A DNA stretch of 64,000 nucleotides, taken from positions 1-64,000 of the forward strand of contig NZ_MKVJ01000021.1 in assembly GCF_001898805.1 (NCBI RefSeq). The letters run 5' to 3'. Positions 8,154-13,742 of this stretch are shown here, in pieces; position 1 is the stretch's first letter, and each line of letters opens with the position of its first letter. The stretch comes from Leifsonia sp. 71-9. GTDB lineage: Bacteria; Actinomycetota; Actinomycetes; Actinomycetales; Microbacteriaceae. The position numbers and the translations under genes were made by a program. Below the pieces are notes generated by a model, which was not told the DNA's origin, did not search any database, and saw only the letters and a list, made by a program, of their open reading frames with translations.

Positions 8154-8750
8154 ATGGCCTCCCGAGACGCCCCGGCGACCGCGGCAGCACCGCGCAAGCG
8201 GGGCCGCCCCACCGAGCAGGAGCGCGCCCAGCGCCGCGACGACATCCTCGACGCGGCCGTGCGCCTCCTCCTCGCCGGCGGCTTCCACCAGGTGACCCTC
8301 GACACCATCGCCGCCGAGGCCCACGTCACCAAGCGCACCATCTACAGCTACTTCGGCGACCGCACGGACATCGGCATCGCCGCCGTCGACCGGTTGCGCG
8401 AGCGCGCGCTCGGCGAACCCGACGACGCGCACGGCCTCGCCGAGCTCGCTGCGGCCATCGTCTTCACCCTCCACTCCGACGAGGCGGTCGGCCTGCACCG
8501 GCTCATGATCGCGGAAGCCGGCACCCTCCCCGGTCTGGCCGAGCGCTTCTACGCCGACGGCCCGCGGTCGTATATTGCCGCCCTCGACCGGAGGCTGCCG
8601 CATCCCGACCCGGAACGCGCGACCGCGCTCTTCGCCCTCCTGCTGGGGGAGCCGCACCGCCAGCGCCTGCTCGGCCTGCGGGCGGCGCCGACCCGGCGGG
8701 AGGCCGCCGAGCACGCGAGCGCCGCCCTGCGCCTGCTCGCCCTGGGCTGA
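8154..8750 (+). CDS. TetR-family regulator, probably of the 2-oxoacid dehydrogenase operon
   Basis: 198 residues, ATG 8154 with a GAAGGAGGCG site. A basic N-terminal tail (RKRGRPTEQERAQRRDDIL) leads into the TetR HTH: FHQVTLDTIAAEAHVTKRTIYSYFGDRTDI, the family's recognition helix and tyrosine-rich end. The C-terminal ligand domain is divergent. Gene position makes the E1alpha-E1beta-E2 operon the likely target, with an acyl-CoA or oxoacid as possible effector; that is inference. Confidence 0.88.
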   Translation: MASRDAPATAAAPRKRGRPTEQERAQRRDDILDAAVRLLLAGGFHQVTLDTIAAEAHVTKRTIYSYFGDRTDIGIAAVDRLRERALGEPDDAHGLAELAAAIVFTLHSDEAVGLHRLMIAEAGTLPGLAERFYADGPRSYIAALDRRLPHPDPERATALFALLLGEPHRQRLLGLRAAPTRREAAEHASAALRLLALG

Positions 8751-8760
8751 GCCGCGCGGT

Positions 8761-8794
8761 CCTTGGAGGATTCTTGGGGCGCCGCGGCTTGACT
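8761..8794 (+). promoter_or_regulatory. Direct-repeat box and leaderless promoter of dedA (box 1 of 4)
   Basis: CCTTGG (8761-8766), five bases, TCTTGG (8772-8777), eleven bases, then TTGACT (8789-8794) as a -10-like hexamer. Seven bases later is the dedA ATG, so the mRNA would be leaderless. The 11-bp repeat spacing is one helical turn, as expected for tandem OmpR-family sites. The same geometry recurs at three other promoters in this cluster. Confidence 0.65.
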
Positions 8795-8801
8795 TGACCG
8801 C

Positions 8802-9458
8802 ATGACCCACACCGGACTCCTCGCCACCGGACTCATCGACCCCCAGGGCATCATCCAGGCCGCCGGACCCTGGGCCCTCCTCGGCGTCTGCGCGATCGTG
8901 TTCGTCGAGACCGGCCTGCTCGTCGGGTTCTTCCTCCCCGGCGACACCCTCCTCTTCTTCGCCGGGGTGCTCACCCTCACCGGGCACTTCACCGAGCCGC
9001 TGTGGGTGATCATCGTCGCAGTGATCGTCGCGGCGGTGCTCGGCGATCAGGTCGGCTACCTGATCGGCCGCCGCACCGGTCCGGCGGTCTTCGAGCGCAA
9101 GGAGTCCGGCTTCTTCAGCAGGGCGAGCGTGGACCGCACACAGCACTTCTTCGACCGGTTCGGCGGCGCCGCCGTCACGGTGGCGCGGTTCGTGCCCGTG
9201 GTGCGCACCTTCGCGCCCGTCGCCGCCGGTGTCGGGCGCATGCACTGGACGCTGTTCACCGTCTACAACGTCGTCGGCGCGGCGATCTGGGCGACGGCCG
9301 TCATCCTCCTCGGCTACGGCCTCGGCCACATCCCGGGCGTCGCGGACTTCGTCGCGCAGTACCTCGACCTGGTGCTGATCGGCATCGTCGTGATCTCGGT
9401 CGTCCCGGTGCTCGTGCGCGCCATCACGCTGCGCCGGCGGTCGCGCGCGGATTCGTAG
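8802..9458 (+). CDS. DedA-family membrane protein (VTT domain)
   Basis: 218 residues with several hydrophobic segments and the DedA/VTT signature: FVETGLLVGFFLPGDTLLFFAG near the N-terminus and FGGAAVTVARFVPVVRTFAPVAAGVGRMHW in the re-entrant region, with conserved Arg and Pro. DedA proteins are membrane lipid transporters; some flip undecaprenyl phosphate back across the membrane. The gene is preceded by the two-component box and its end overlaps the convergent histidine kinase gene by 35 bp. The PAP2 phosphatase under the same box makes a lipid-carrier recycling role attractive but unproven. Confidence 0.88.
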   Translation: MTHTGLLATGLIDPQGIIQAAGPWALLGVCAIVFVETGLLVGFFLPGDTLLFFAGVLTLTGHFTEPLWVIIVAVIVAAVLGDQVGYLIGRRTGPAVFERKESGFFSRASVDRTQHFFDRFGGAAVTVARFVPVVRTFAPVAAGVGRMHWTLFTVYNVVGAAIWATAVILLGYGLGHIPGVADFVAQYLDLVLIGIVVISVVPVLVRAITLRRRSRADS

Positions 9459-10434
9459 ACGCCGGGACCCGCATCGCCAGCACTGTGCCGGACGGTCCGG
9501 TCGTCTCGACCGCGACGCCGCCGCCGTGCCGGGCGGCGATCTCGCGCACGAGGGCGAGGCCGATGCCGAAGCCCGCGCCGGCTCGCCGGGGCACGCTCGG
9601 CTGGGCCCGGGCGAACCGGTCGAAGATGCGGGAGGGGTCGATCCCCGAGATCCCCGGACCCTCGTCCGCGACGCGCAGCACCGCGTCCGCCCCGTCGCGG
9701 AGGACGCCGATCGTCACCCGGGTGCCGGACGGCGAGTGGGCGAGCGCGTTGTCCACGAGGGCGGTCGCGCAGCGCTGCAGGCTGGCCGGCGGGATCGTGG
9801 TCAGCACCTGCGGGTCGGCGTCGAGCAGCAGCTCCACCTCGGCGTCGCGCGCGAGCACCTGCAGGGCCTCGACCGCGCGCGCGACGGGCACGGCCATCGG
9901 CGCCGGCTCGACCGCCGCTTCCCGCTCCGGGTCGGCGGCGAGCAGCAGGTCGTTGACCACGTCGATCAGCGTCCGCGCGTCGTCCCGCAGCTCGGCGACC
10001 GTCGCCGCGGAGGGGTCGCCGTCCGGCAGACCGCGCTGCAGCACCTGGAGGCGCGCGTCGAGCACGGCGAGCGGCGTGCGCAGCTCGTGGCTCGCGTCCG
10101 CGACGAACTCGCGCTGGAGCGTGAGGGCGCGGCCGAGCGGGCGCACGGCGCGGCGGGTGACGATCATGCTGAGGACGCCCGCGATCGCCACCGCCAGCAC
10201 TCCGACGACGACGAAGGCGATCATCGCCTCGGTCGTGTCGATGTAGATCTTGTGCTCGCCCGGCTTCGGCGGCTCCTGCAGCTCCGACGGCCGCAGCTGA
10301 TCGAGCACGAAGAAGAACGCGACGCCGATGGCCGCGACGACGAGCGCGCCCGAGGCGATCGCCAGCTGCAGCCCGACCGTGCGGGAGGCGGCCCGCACCT
10401 CCCGCAGATCGGCATCCTCCTGCGCGCCGTTCAC
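9424..10434 (-). CDS. Sensor histidine kinase of a two-component system
   Basis: 336 residues from GTG 10434, overlapping the response regulator stop by 4 bp. Two transmembrane segments (about 20-45 and 71-92) enclose a very short extracytoplasmic loop of about 25 residues. The phosphoacceptor helix FVADASHELRTP places His116 in the H box. The ATPase domain has the N box (DNALAHSP), DEGPGIS and GAGFGIGLALVREIAARHGG. A loop this short suggests sensing within or at the membrane, as in intramembrane-sensing envelope-stress kinases. The promoter lies upstream of the regulator gene. Confidence 0.9.
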   Translation of the reverse strand: MNGAQEDADLREVRAASRTVGLQLAIASGALVVAAIGVAFFFVLDQLRPSELQEPPKPGEHKIYIDTTEAMIAFVVVGVLAVAIAGVLSMIVTRRAVRPLGRALTLQREFVADASHELRTPLAVLDARLQVLQRGLPDGDPSAATVAELRDDARTLIDVVNDLLLAADPEREAAVEPAPMAVPVARAVEALQVLARDAEVELLLDADPQVLTTIPPASLQRCATALVDNALAHSPSGTRVTIGVLRDGADAVLRVADEGPGISGIDPSRIFDRFARAQPSVPRRAGAGFGIGLALVREIAARHGGGVAVETTGPSGTVLAMRVPASTNPRATAGAA

Positions 10435-11096
10435 AGCTGCCCCAGCCGGTAGCCCTGACCGCGGACGGTCGAGATGATGTCGGGATCCGTCTTGCGCCGC
10501 ACGTAGTGCACGTAGGTGTCGACGGTGCCGTCCTGTTCGTCGGCCTCGAAGACCGCCTCGAGGATCTGCCGTCGCGAGAAGGTGCGCAGCGGGTTCTCGG
10601 CGAGCAGGCGCAGGAGCGCGCTCTCCCGGTCGGTCAGCAGGATGCGCCCTTCGTACGGGGAGTAGATCGCCCGGCTCTCGGGGTGGAACCGCCAGCCGCC
10701 GACCGCGATCTCCTTGCCCTCGCCCGTGAAGGTGCGCGTCAGCGCGCGCAGGCGGGCGAGGAGCTCGTCGAACTCGAACGGCTTCACCAGGTAGTCGTTC
10801 GCGCCGGCGTCGAGGCCGTCCACGCGGTCGCGCACGGTGCCGAGCGCGGTGAGCATCAGGATGGGCGCCACGACCCGCCGTTCGCGCAGCGCGGTCACGA
10901 CCTCCGCGCCGTCGAGCCCCGGCAGTCGCCGGTCGACGACCAGCGCGTCGAAATCGCCGGCCAGCCCCGCGGCGAGTCCGGCCTCCCCGTCCTCGACCCG
11001 CGTCACCTCGTACACCTCGGTCAGCACCTGCTCGATGAGCGGCCCGAGCCGCGGGTCGTCCTCGATCAGGAGCACGCGCAGTCTCTCCGTCGCCAC
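10431..11096 (-). CDS. OmpR/PhoB-family response regulator
   Basis: 221 residues, GTG 11096, with a GGAGGT site at about 11102-11107. The receiver domain has the acidic pair (IEDD), the phosphorylation site Asp55 (VVDRRLPG) and the conserved Lys in YLVKPFEFDELLARL. The C-terminal winged helix ends DGTVDTYVHYVRRKTD, as expected of OmpR-type DNA binding. Its own promoter carries the same box as the three neighbouring membrane genes, so autoregulation is likely. Confidence 0.93.
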   Translation of the reverse strand: MATERLRVLLIEDDPRLGPLIEQVLTEVYEVTRVEDGEAGLAAGLAGDFDALVVDRRLPGLDGAEVVTALRERRVVAPILMLTALGTVRDRVDGLDAGANDYLVKPFEFDELLARLRALTRTFTGEGKEIAVGGWRFHPESRAIYSPYEGRILLTDRESALLRLLAENPLRTFSRRQILEAVFEADEQDGTVDTYVHYVRRKTDPDIISTVRGQGYRLGQL

Positions 11097-11120
11097 TCGC
11101 CACCTCCACTCGCCGGCCCC

Positions 11121-11154
11121 AGCATGACGGACCGGCTCCCAGACGGCACTAAGG
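11121..11154 (-). promoter_or_regulatory. Direct-repeat box and promoter of the response regulator/kinase operon (box 2 of 4)
   Basis: On the minus strand: CCTTAG (11154-11149), five bases, TCTGGG (11143-11138), eleven bases, CATGCT (11126-11121) as -10-like hexamer. Transcription would start about 18 nt before the GTG at 11096. The segment from TCTGGG toward the -10 is a mirror image of the divergent promoter: the 14-bp arms 11130-11143 and 11175-11188 are perfectly inverted. Confidence 0.62.
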
Positions 11155-11163
11155 AGCGCGCCG

Positions 11164-11197
11164 TCTCAGAGATTTCTGGGAGCCGGTCGCCGATGCT
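11164..11197 (+). promoter_or_regulatory. Direct-repeat box and leaderless promoter of the COG4705-like gene (box 3 of 4)
   Basis: TCTCAG (11164-11169), five bases, TCTGGG (11175-11180), eleven bases, GATGCT (11192-11197), then six bases to the ATG at 11204. The geometry is identical to the dedA promoter, again predicting a leaderless transcript. Confidence 0.62.
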
Positions 11198-11203
11198 GTC
11201 AGC

Positions 11204-11980
11204 ATGCTGCGCAACAAGGTACCCGAGGTGACCGCCCTCTTCTGGGCGACCAAGCTGCTCACCACCGCGATGGGCGAGACCGCCTCCGACTTCCTGGTGA
11301 AGACCGTCGACCCGTACCTCGCGGTCGGGGTCACCTTCGTCGTGTTCGCCGGTGCGCTCGCGCTGCAGCTGGCCGTGCGCCGCTACATCCCCTGGGTCTA
11401 CTGGCTGGCCGTCCTCATGGTCGCGGTGTTCGGCACGATGGTCGCCGACGTGCTGCACGTGCAGTTCGGCGTGCCCTATCTCGTCTCGACCATCGGGTTC
11501 GCCGTCGTGCTCGCCGCGGTCTTCTCGCTGTGGTGGGGAACGCAGCGCACCCTCTCGGTGCACCGCATCGACACGCGGGCGCGCGAGCTCTTCTACTGGT
11601 GCGCGGTGCTCGCCACCTTCGCGCTCGGCACGGCGATCGGCGACCTCACCGCCGTCACGTTCGGCCTGGGCTACCTCGCCGCCGGCCTCCTGTTCGGCGT
11701 GCTGTTCGCCATCCCCGGCGCCGCCTACCGGTGGTGGGGGATGGGCGCCACCGCCGCCTTCTGGACCTCCTACGTGCTCACCCGCCCGTTCGGCGCCTCC
11801 TTCGCCGACTGGTTCTCGCGCTCCCACGCGCTCGGCGGCCTCGGTCTCGGCACCGGACCGGTCAGCCTCGCGCTGTTCGCCGCGATCGTCGTCTGCGTGG
11901 TCGTGCTGTCGGCGCGCCCTCGCGGATCCTCAGGGTCCGGCGCGGCGTCCTTAGAGGTTCCTCAGCAGCGCTCCGCTTGA
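11204..11980 (+). CDS. Polytopic membrane protein, COG4705-like
   Basis: 258 residues with about eight hydrophobic segments. The protein looks internally duplicated: KVPEVTALFWATKLLTTAMGETASDFL in the first half resembles the FYWCAVLATFALGTAIGDL segment in the second. The KxxEVTxxFWxxKxxxTxxGEtxxDfL opening is what I associate with the uncharacterised COG4705 membrane family. The ATG at 11204 has no ribosome binding site and sits six bases after a -10-like element. It is divergent from the two-component system and shares its regulatory box. Confidence 0.75.
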   Translation: MLRNKVPEVTALFWATKLLTTAMGETASDFLVKTVDPYLAVGVTFVVFAGALALQLAVRRYIPWVYWLAVLMVAVFGTMVADVLHVQFGVPYLVSTIGFAVVLAAVFSLWWGTQRTLSVHRIDTRARELFYWCAVLATFALGTAIGDLTAVTFGLGYLAAGLLFGVLFAIPGAAYRWWGMGATAAFWTSYVLTRPFGASFADWFSRSHALGGLGLGTGPVSLALFAAIVVCVVVLSARPRGSSGSGAASLEVPQQRSA

Positions 11981-11982
11981 CT
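11949..11982 (+). promoter_or_regulatory. Direct-repeat box and promoter of the PAP2 gene (box 4 of 4)
   Basis: CCTTAG (11949-11954), five bases, CCTCAG (11960-11965), eleven bases, TTGACT (11977-11982). The box lies in the last codons of the preceding gene. Here a leader of about 28 nt with a GAAGGGA site precedes the GTG start, unlike the leaderless dedA promoter with the same -10 hexamer. Confidence 0.62.
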
Positions 11983-12017
11983 GTCCTGGTCGACAGAAAC
12001 CGAAGGGACCCTCTGAC

Positions 12018-12692
12018 GTGAACTCCGCCCTCCTGCGCATCCCCCGCCATTGGATCGTCTGGACCGTCGCGCTCTTCGCCCTGACGTTCGTGCTCGGCTT
12101 CGCGGCCAAGGCCGTCCCGGCGCTGCGACTCGCCGGCCTCGACGACGGGATCAACCGGGCGCACTCGCCGTTCGCCGACGGGGTCGCGCTGGTGCTCGAC
12201 GAGCTCGACCGGCCGGTCGTCGTGGCCGGGATCCTCGTCGTCGTGTTCGTCGTGCTGCTCTTCGTCCGCGGCTGGAAAGCGGCCCTCGGCGCCTGCGCCG
12301 TCACCGGTCTCGGCTGGATCACCACCCTCGTCGTCAAGACGATCGTCGCCCAGCCGCGCCCGACCACCGGCGGCCTCGTGCACACCCTGCACGTGAGCCC
12401 CGCGACCCTGAGCTACCCGAGCGGCCACGTCGTCTTCGCGACCGCACTGGTGACCGCCCTGGTGATGGTCTGCCGCGGCCCCGTGGCGCGCGCGGTCGTC
12501 GTCGTGCTCGGCGTCGTCTTCGTGGTGGTGGTCGCCTGGTCGCGCCTCTACCTCGGCGTCCACTTCCCGACCGACGTCGTCGGCGGTGTGCTCAACGGCG
12601 TCGCGGGCGTGCTGCTCTTCGCCGGGCTGTGGAACCTCGCCGCCGCGCGCGTGTTCGCCGAGCGGCGGGAGCCGGCGCGCGTCACCGTCTGA
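12018..12692 (+). CDS. PAP2-family phosphatase
   Basis: 224 residues, several transmembrane segments, and all three parts of the PAP2 active-site signature: KTIVAQPRP (Kx6RP), YPSGH and SRLYLGVHFPTD (SRx5Hx3D). Members dephosphorylate undecaprenyl pyrophosphate, phosphatidic acid or related lipids at the outer face of the membrane. GTG start at 12018 behind a GAAGGGA site. Sharing a regulatory box with DedA points to lipid-carrier or phospholipid turnover. Confidence 0.9.
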   Translation: MNSALLRIPRHWIVWTVALFALTFVLGFAAKAVPALRLAGLDDGINRAHSPFADGVALVLDELDRPVVVAGILVVVFVVLLFVRGWKAALGACAVTGLGWITTLVVKTIVAQPRPTTGGLVHTLHVSPATLSYPSGHVVFATALVTALVMVCRGPVARAVVVVLGVVFVVVVAWSRLYLGVHFPTDVVGGVLNGVAGVLLFAGLWNLAAARVFAERREPARVTV

Positions 12693-12701
12693 CGCCCTGG
12701 A

Positions 12702-13256
12702 TCAGGGGCCGAGGACACCGGTCGGCCAGCCGTGACGGCCGAAGTAGTCGCGAAGACGCTCCAGCACCTCGCTGTCCGTGGCGTTCGGGTCTCTCAACCA
12801 GCGCCGACGGGCCATGTCGACGAGGGCGGCGACGGCTTCAGCCGGAGAGACATCGATCGCGTACGTGAGAAACACCGGCATGCGTTGTGCGTCGACGAGG
12901 CGGCTCCGGTTGACCTCGTTGTGAAGGTTCTCGTCCTCGGTCAACAAGACATCGGCGTGGCCCCAGAGCGCCGCGGCAACCACATGACGGTCCTTCTCGT
13001 TGACATCCAGGCGTACATGGATATCGACCTCGCCCGGCCATTCCACCAGCGCCTCAGGGAAGGCGTCGTTCATGGCCGTGAACAAGCCGGCTCGGGCCCC
13101 TGCGTCCATACTGGCGGGAAGGTGCCGATCGGCTTCCTCCAGCACAAGAGGGCTCCAGAGGATCTCGAACAGGTCGGCCGCGGCGAGGGTCAAGACGATG
13201 TCGCGCCAACGCCCTGGAACGAGGACGTTGGCGTCGACGAAGACTCGAAACGGCAC
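12702..13256 (-). CDS. PIN-domain protein, probable toxin of a type II pair
   Basis: 184 residues from GTG 13256, one base beyond the stop of the upstream HTH gene. The PIN fold is shown by the N-terminal FRVFVDANVLVPG strand and by DVNEKDRHVVAAALWGHADVLLTEDENL, giving the usual metal-binding Asp cluster. PIN toxins are Mg-dependent ribonucleases. The protein is longer than typical VapC (about 130 aa) and closer to the longer PIN proteins paired with excisionase-type HTH antitoxins. Direct adjacency to such a gene supports the call. Confidence 0.8.
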   Translation of the reverse strand: MPFRVFVDANVLVPGRWRDIVLTLAAADLFEILWSPLVLEEADRHLPASMDAGARAGLFTAMNDAFPEALVEWPGEVDIHVRLDVNEKDRHVVAAALWGHADVLLTEDENLHNEVNRSRLVDAQRMPVFLTYAIDVSPAEAVAALVDMARRRWLRDPNATDSEVLERLRDYFGRHGWPTGVLGP

Positions 13257-13257
13257 G

Positions 13258-13710
13258 TCAGAACGGGTCGCCGTCGTAGCCGCCGGTCTGGGCCGTGACC
13301 TCGGCGATCGCATCGAGCGTGGCGCGACGCTCCCGCTTGGACTCCTCGAGGTACCGGACGGTCTCGGTCAGAGACACCCGGCGATGCGTTCCGCGGAACT
13401 CGTAGGCGAGCTGCCCGTCGTCGATCAGGTGGACCACGAACGACCGCGATACCCCGAGAAGGTCTGCGACCTGGGAGGTCGTCAGCAGAGTGCGCGCGGA
13501 GCCGATGACGACGCTGTCGCCGTTCGCGAAACGTGCCAGCAGGTCCTGAACGGCGTCAGCGACATCGCTCGGAAGGGTGATGACCTCGTCGCCGACCAGG
13601 ATCCGGGGAGACGTGACGGAGTCTCCCACTCGGGCCGCGGCTGACTTCAGCGCGCTCAACTCCGATGCATCCACGACTGCCTTCGTCGCGTGCGGGCTCA
13701 AGAGAGTCAT
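13258..13710 (-). CDS. Excisionase-type HTH protein, probable antitoxin
   Basis: 150 residues. I choose ATG 13710 because a GGAGG site sits five bases upstream; a second ATG at 13731 has none. The MerR/excisionase-like HTH is LLTTSQVADLLGVSRSFVVHLIDDGQLAYEFRGTHRRV at about 80-120, which would bind DNA. The N-terminal half has no recognised domain. It is followed immediately by the PIN gene and preceded by an array of 9-bp repeats, the likely autoregulatory operator. Confidence 0.8.
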   Translation of the reverse strand: MTLLSPHATKAVVDASELSALKSAAARVGDSVTSPRILVGDEVITLPSDVADAVQDLLARFANGDSVVIGSARTLLTTSQVADLLGVSRSFVVHLIDDGQLAYEFRGTHRRVSLTETVRYLEESKRERRATLDAIAEVTAQTGGYDGDPF

Positions 13711-13742
13711 CGGGGCCTCCAACAGGTCCATCGTGAGACACC

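Follow-up and report, generated by a model that had tools for sequence, protein, structure and literature searches.

Tandem promoter sites suggest a self-controlled two-component regulon of DUF347, PAP2 and DedA membrane protein genes in Leifsonia sp. 71-9 and other Microbacteriaceae

Introduction

In the mmf cassette (mmfA-B-C1-D-C2-R-S; Tn6048/pMOL98/pHB44), which was termed multiple metal response, a two-component system is encoded together with a PAP2 phosphatase and DUF347 membrane proteins, and plasmids carrying mmf conferred bacitracin resistance (PMC4914505). In Frankia, operons in which a DUF347 gene lies beside the undecaprenyl phosphatase gene UppP are among the genes raised by lead, with neither a two-component system nor a DNA site described in the part of the report available to us (PMC4531530). 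In Pseudomonas, the sensor ColS detects zinc and ferric iron through an ExxE motif (PMC4074579), and the OmpR-family regulator ColR activates the PAP2 gene PP0900, the neighbour of colR (PP0901) (PMC4074579, PMC2689224). Here we analyze a stretch of 64,000 nucleotides of Leifsonia sp. 71-9 (contig NZ_MKVJ01000021.1, positions 1 to 64,000; hereafter the window), in which four tandem sites of the same architecture lie ahead of a dedA gene, a response regulator/sensor kinase gene pair, a DUF347 gene and a PAP2 gene. As judged from the DNA and its relatives, these genes probably constitute a small two-component regulon under its own control, present in Leifsonia and other Microbacteriaceae; the regulator would act as a PhoB-type class II activator of its own gene, DUF347, PAP2 and DedA.

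The window locus resembles each of the described systems in part. With mmf it shares, in one cluster, the regulator (33% identity), the kinase (30%), PAP2 (38% over 106 residues) and DUF347 (47% and 33% to the two mmf proteins). The cassette differs by its PepSY protein MmfA, its MmfD, its two DUF347 genes, the placement of all genes on one strand and the lack of DedA; a scan of 8 window proteins encoded at 8154-13731 found no PepSY domain, neither MmfA nor MmfD had a match to any window query at E <= 1, and the fetched pHB44 mmf stretch holds no tandem site (best 10.5 bits). ColRS is alike in its OmpR-family regulator, direct-repeat site, adjoining PAP2 target, membrane targets and kinase ExxE; it differs in a T-rich ColR consensus, unlike the window site, in a ColS loop of 96 residues against 25-26 here, and in its targets, among which neither DUF347 nor DedA was seen in the accessible parts of the two reports (PMC2689224, PMC4074579). 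PhoB with its PHO box and PhoP of Mycobacterium tuberculosis bind head-to-tail repeats of 7 + 4 bp with an 11-bp period (PMC4415409, PMC4832192), the half-site sequence and the regulon being different. PmrAB/BasRS has in common an ExxE motif in the outer domain of the sensor, according to the sections available (PMC12666569), and envelope-modification targets. The window proteins fall far below the curated NCBIfam cut-offs for PmrA (119 of 330 bits) and PmrB (72 of 314 bits), and no ColRS model is among the 25 NCBIfam matches listed per protein. The PmrAB/BasRS site is an N5-spaced repeat as well. Among the titles and abstracts listed, no open-licence PMC paper on the regulon described here was found.

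Results

A tandem site at a fixed distance from a -10-like hexamer

Each of the four sites (Table 1) consists of two YCTNRG half-sites with an 11-bp period, followed after 11 nt by a hexamer ending in T. All four sites listed in the original prediction are present with this spacing; it had also called them identical, which is true of their architecture and not of their letters. Sites resembling those of dedA, the regulator and PAP2 are found at the same genes in the relatives L088, L089 and L090.

Table 1. Promoter elements and genes of the putative regulon in the window.
Feature	Position	Strand	Remarks
TetR gene	8154-8750		Pfam assignment
dedA tandem site	8761..8777	+	CCTTGG-N5-TCTTGG, 11-bp period; scores 23.2 bits with the relatives-only matrix (rank 2 of 127,968)
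dedA -10-like hexamer	8789..8794	+	TTGACT, 11 nt past the tandem site, 7 nt ahead of ATG; predicted leaderless
dedA, VTT/DedA protein	8802..9458	+	Pfam PF09335; E-x11-D and R-x5-R of COG0586 undecaprenyl phosphate flippases
Sensor histidine kinase	9424..10434	-	Pfam HisKA and HATPase; two transmembrane helices predicted by hydropathy; outer loop of 25-26 residues with ExxE
OmpR/PhoB-family response regulator	10431..11096	-	Pfam Response_reg and Trans_reg_C over cut-off; D55, K105
Regulator/kinase -10-like hexamer	11121..11126	-	CATGCT
Regulator/kinase tandem site	11138..11154	-	Putative autoregulation; 15.3 bits, lowest of the four
DUF347 tandem site	11164..11180	+	9 bp from the regulator site, in back-to-back arrangement; matrix rank 1
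DUF347 -10-like hexamer	11192..11197	+	GATGCT, 6 nt ahead of ATG; predicted leaderless
DUF347 (COG4705-like) multi-pass membrane protein	11204..11980	+	Pfam PF03988, 4 stretches
PAP2 tandem site	11949..11965	+	Within the final codons of the DUF347 gene; matrix rank 3
PAP2 -10-like hexamer	11977..11982	+	TTGACT, 35 nt ahead of GTG
PAP2 phosphatase	12018..12692	+	Pfam PF01569; three catalytic motifs

The loose pattern of the original prediction has 5 matches in the window, where shuffled sequences average 1.58; at least 5 matches arose in 3 of 100 shuffles. Genome-wide it has 56 matches and its reversed control 105, and this count was rejected as proof because it shows no enrichment. Since the loose pattern alone is not clearly above chance, relatives were examined, first in 40 regions surrounding DUF347 genes of the genus and the family and then in 20 more. 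When the four window sites are turned into a matrix, it finds strong sites ahead of the DUF347, PAP2, DedA and regulator genes of these relatives. In the reverse direction, 27 sites from other genomes, chosen by eye, yield a 17-column matrix that ranks the four window sites 1, 2, 3 and 5 of 127,968 positions, the strings at 11164 and 11949 occurring letter for letter among those 27. At relatives' promoters of the same four families the matrix collects 71 sites, of which 50 remain once sites at least 70% alike are removed; the genes with a site number 31/55 for DUF347 (both paralogues counted), 16/22 for PAP2, 9/21 for DedA and 8/27 for the regulator.

The hexamer played no part in finding these sites, and the 11-nt rule is therefore confirmed independently by its recurrence. 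The 11-nt spacer that follows the repeats shows little conservation, and after it A is found at position 2 of the hexamer in 37/50 and T at position 6 in 44/50 of the non-redundant sites (T in 65/71 of all sites). The combination nAnnnT occurs at spacing 11 in 35 of the 50 sites and in at most 7 of the 50 at each of 17 other spacings. An 11-nt step to the -10 is also that of pho promoters, and the half-sites with an 11-bp period in place of a -35, at a fixed distance from the -10, are those of a PhoB-like class II promoter. Conservation and fixed spacing thus support the suggestion that an OmpR-type tandem site replaces the -35, and the sites at the same families in relatives support the prediction that dedA, DUF347 and PAP2 form one regulon.

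A strict 34-mer has 19 matches in the 28 genomes of the genus and none for its control, all of them upstream of the regulon families (DUF347 14, PAP2 2, regulator 2, DedA 1). Accordingly, the concern that the motif might be common genome-wide at random positions applies to the loose pattern and not to the refined one. A fortuitous grouping of matches to a loose pattern in GC-rich DNA, as the absence of genome-wide enrichment would allow, is an extremely improbable account of the four sites in view of the fixed -10 spacing over 50 non-redundant sites, the co-occurrence with the regulator and the result of the strict pattern.

The divergent regulator and DUF347 promoters make up an inverted repeat of 24 nt (11120-11143 / 11175-11198, 83%) that extends across the spacer into the -10, as if an inverted duplication of one promoter had given the other.

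The site tracks the regulator

The regulator has the receiver and winged-helix effector domains, the phospho-acceptor aspartate and the lysine of the OmpR/PhoB family, and it is present in 19/28 genus genomes (E <= 1e-70). A DUF347 orthologue, i.e. the closer of two paralogues, is found in 24 of the 28 (94% identical to the window protein in G001), and in 15 of these 24, the window's own included, a tandem site begins 37-40 nt ahead of the start codon. Among the 24 genomes, 15 have both site and regulator, 2 the regulator only, none the site only, and 7 neither (Fisher p = 1e-4); in the two exceptions, G015 and G026, the regulator is encoded at another place, next to PAP2 or to a site-bearing DUF347 paralogue. 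In agreement with this distribution, the strict 34-mer is found in 17/19 regulator-positive genus genomes (G019 and G025 having the regulator without a match) and in 0/9 regulator-negative ones. All 20 regulator loci of the genus (19 genomes) have DUF347, PAP2 or DedA at most 7 kb away, in variable gene order. It is also in favour of the regulon that no site turned up in the loci of three further PAP2 and three further DedA genes found in the own genome (best 10.4 bits).

The same association was observed at the level of the family. Regulator (E <= 1e-65) and DUF347 co-occur among 150 genomes (both 25, regulator only 7, DUF347 only 18, neither 100; p = 4e-11), and of the 43 DUF347-bearing genomes, 27 loci were fetched, in which a site precedes DUF347 in 10/19 regulator-positive and 0/8 regulator-negative cases (p = 0.012). 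At E <= 1e-65 the regulator was found outside the window's family in 3 of 297 genomes of the order, a set that includes family members; in one of them, L316, in which the regulator match reads through one stop, a 28.7-bit site lies 756 bp upstream of the regulator.

These distributions bear on the question of which protein binds the site. The genomes hold many response regulators, and a paralogous OmpR-family regulator or another protein, such as the neighbouring TetR, might be the one that acts. We consider this improbable, because the site tracks the window regulator in the genus, the 9 genomes that lack this regulator contain no strict site, and a TetR homologue is found in 6/41 loci. Direct repeats with an 11-bp period fit OmpR-family proteins, not the palindromes of TetR proteins.

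Several observations weigh against a single regulon controlled by this regulator. The matrix sites were picked by eye, and the roughly 80- to 140-fold enrichment that they yield is therefore partly circular, whereas the -10 test is not. A middling-strict 17-mer has 90 matches against 45 for its control in the 28 genus genomes, many of them off target, and the strict 34-mer was composed after the relatives' sites had been seen and fits one of the four window sites (11164). When 30 of the 51 loose matches outside the window were viewed in the own genome with the matrix, six positions reached at least 10 bits, one of them with a T-ending hexamer (L004, 11.9 bits). The dedA and PAP2 hexamers, both TTGACT, have T instead of A at position 2 and so lack the A of nAnnnT; the form is retained in L088 and L089, and may mark a weaker, more activator-dependent promoter class. 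Directly upstream of 9 of the 19 regulator-positive family DUF347 genes there is no site, some of these genes resembling second genes of an operon, and because the genomes share ancestry the p values are too small. Finally, many relatives have a weak site or none at the regulator promoter: an own-strand site of at least 12 bits lies within 250 bp upstream of 4/29 family regulator genes (51-80% identical, the lowest perhaps not orthologues).

The predicted autoregulation is supported in the window and its nearest relatives, whereas its conservation does not equal that of the DUF347 site. In seven genus genomes a PAP2 gene with a site precedes the regulator on the same strand, and autoregulation may run via PAP2 there.

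Seven DUF347 orthologues (L097, L099, L101, L102, L103, L109 and L110) have no linked regulator; six of these genomes are without it, and that of L101 lies elsewhere. They keep GATGCT or GATCCT just before the ATG and share, about 100 nt before DUF347, another element, CTCTNARYCCTCTCAG-like and followed by CYCAG (less clear in L099), which suggests a rewiring of DUF347 to a different regulator. A DUF347 paralogue of 44-48% identity (L172, L174, L175, L176, L127, L089) is preceded by a related site (TCTTAGC...CTTGG-like), a TAGCGT or TAGCCT -10 and a leader, and both paralogues may belong to the regulon. The 17-mer YCTTGGTGGATTCTTAG, which recurs in six genus genomes, was considered as a sign of extra members and rejected, being part of a near-identical stretch without an nAnnnT hexamer. 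This stretch is about 90 nt long, is identical or nearly so in L162-L167 and has no -10; the L163 copy matched no Rfam family.

Predicted leaderless messages

The original prediction of leaderless dedA and DUF347 messages is supported by a conserved distance between hexamer and start codon. The DUF347 start codon, set in relatives by alignment to the window protein, follows the hexamer after 6 nt in the window and at 16 of the 33 relatives' DUF347 sites ending in T, as expected of leaderless messages; for dedA the gap is 7 nt in the window and 6 nt at two relatives' sites. The longer distance ahead of the PAP2 gene (Table 1) implies a leadered mRNA.

The target genes and the lipid carrier

The window DedA contains the acidic and arginine pairs of the COG0586 flippases, E36-x11-D48 and R129-x5-R135, spaced as E39/D51 and R130/R136 are in YghB, as far as the accessible part of that report goes (PMC10127716). 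Against the curated UptA models it remains below cut-off (67 of 250 and 63 of 300 bits). The three catalytic motifs of PAP2 phosphatases are all present in the window PAP2; undecaprenyl pyrophosphate (Und-PP) phosphatases are among its nearest NCBIfam models, with scores below cut-off. The genes for DedA and the kinase are convergent, and their 3' ends overlap by 35 bp (9424-9458).

Nine loci of relatives have the tandem site ahead of a gene for a protein of about 510 residues, with TGAACT, TTGACT and TGGACT among the hexamers; the five proteins scanned all match PMT_2 (GT-C), three over the cut-off and two just below, and TGAACT is frequent at these GT-C promoters. GT-C enzymes commonly use lipid-carrier sugars. 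Genes for a CDP-glycerol transferase, a GT2 protein and a DUF2079 protein have the site once each in relatives, which could be chance. The GT-C homologue of the own genome (L315, 50% identity) was considered as a fifth target and rejected, as it has no site. The lipid-carrier theme of the original prediction is thus partly supported, by the DedA and PAP2 hallmark residues and the site at relatives' GT-C genes, and is not borne out at the own GT-C gene.

These genes bear on the signal. The regulon might respond to depletion or block of the undecaprenyl carrier, caused by bacitracin, a lipopeptide or a cationic peptide, with an intramembrane-type kinase and with direct relief provided by PAP2 and DedA. 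The hallmark residues of these two proteins, the matching site ahead of carrier-linked genes (the GT-C, GT2 and CDP-glycerol transferase genes) in relatives, the bacitracin resistance reported for mmf plasmids (PMC4914505) and a kinase loop of merely 25-26 residues are consistent with such a signal, which we rate below an even chance; the own GT-C gene without a site argues against it, as does DUF347, which has no known carrier link. The Pfam scan of the 8 neighbouring proteins also revealed no ABC exporter, a usual companion of Bce-type systems.

The kinase loop and the candidate signal

The loop of the kinase contains ExxE and GEHKIYIDT. The ExxE motif is found in 20 of 25 kinase loops, the window's included, with variable middle residues. 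The same regulon may thus be mainly a response to metal excess, in which ExxE would bind ions like Fe3+, Zn2+ or Pb2+ in the manner of ColS or PmrB, DUF347 would move metal, and PAP2 and DedA would repair the envelope or help to precipitate metal phosphate. This is quite possible, though it falls short of an even chance. Besides the frequency of ExxE, it is favoured by zinc and iron sensing through ExxE in ColS and the link between ColR and PAP2 (PMC4074579, PMC2689224), by the naming of mmf (PMC4914505) and the lead-raised operons of Frankia (PMC4531530), and by the regulator's best NCBIfam neighbours, which include RppA and cztR/silR/copR, below cut-off (CzcR/SilR/CopR model TIGR01387, 142.5 of 279.2 bits). 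It is weakened by the shortness of the motif, by the five divergent kinases of the 25 that lack it, and by BqsS, whose cytoplasmic part has ExxE and yet bound no iron in the part of the report available (PMC12666569). The transport role of DUF347 is putative, and the scan of the 8 neighbouring proteins found no known metal-resistance family.

In our analysis, the ExxE loop and the mmf and Frankia parallels point to metal excess at least as much as to undecaprenyl-carrier stress, and metal excess and carrier or envelope stress appear about level as candidate signals.

Discussion

In the two-component regulon proposed here, the kinase would sense a signal, metal excess or envelope stress, on the outer side of the membrane via its short conserved loop and phosphorylate the regulator. 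Two regulator molecules would then occupy the two YCTNRG half-sites, in head-to-tail orientation and at the place of the -35, and would bring RNA polymerase to a weak nAnnnT-like -10 lying exactly 11 nt further downstream, as in PhoB-like class II activation. Of the products, PAP2, converting Und-PP to undecaprenyl phosphate (Und-P), and DedA, flipping Und-P, would jointly speed recycling of the lipid carrier, and DUF347 is predicted to be a transporter-like protein.

In a further reading, a previously undescribed metal-sensing two-component system of the Microbacteriaceae would couple metal excess to carrier recycling through PAP2, DedA and, in relatives, carrier-linked glycosyltransferases, with DUF347 as the missing transporter of the pathway. 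This proposal is speculative and rather unlikely, and it would account for the joint occurrence of DUF347, PAP2 and a two-component system in actinobacteria as well as in the proteobacterial mmf cassette.

The mechanism itself is an ordinary one of the PhoB-like class II type, and what is new is that a single regulator and a single site tie DUF347 to genes of Und-P recycling. This widespread membrane family, to which no function is assigned, thereby acquires a defined DNA site and a likely regulator. The refined site, which has no strict match off these families in the 28 genus genomes, has the specificity needed to predict members of the regulon in genomes not yet studied, and it makes testable both the role of DUF347 and whether a metal or an envelope signal regulates Und-P recycling in actinobacteria.

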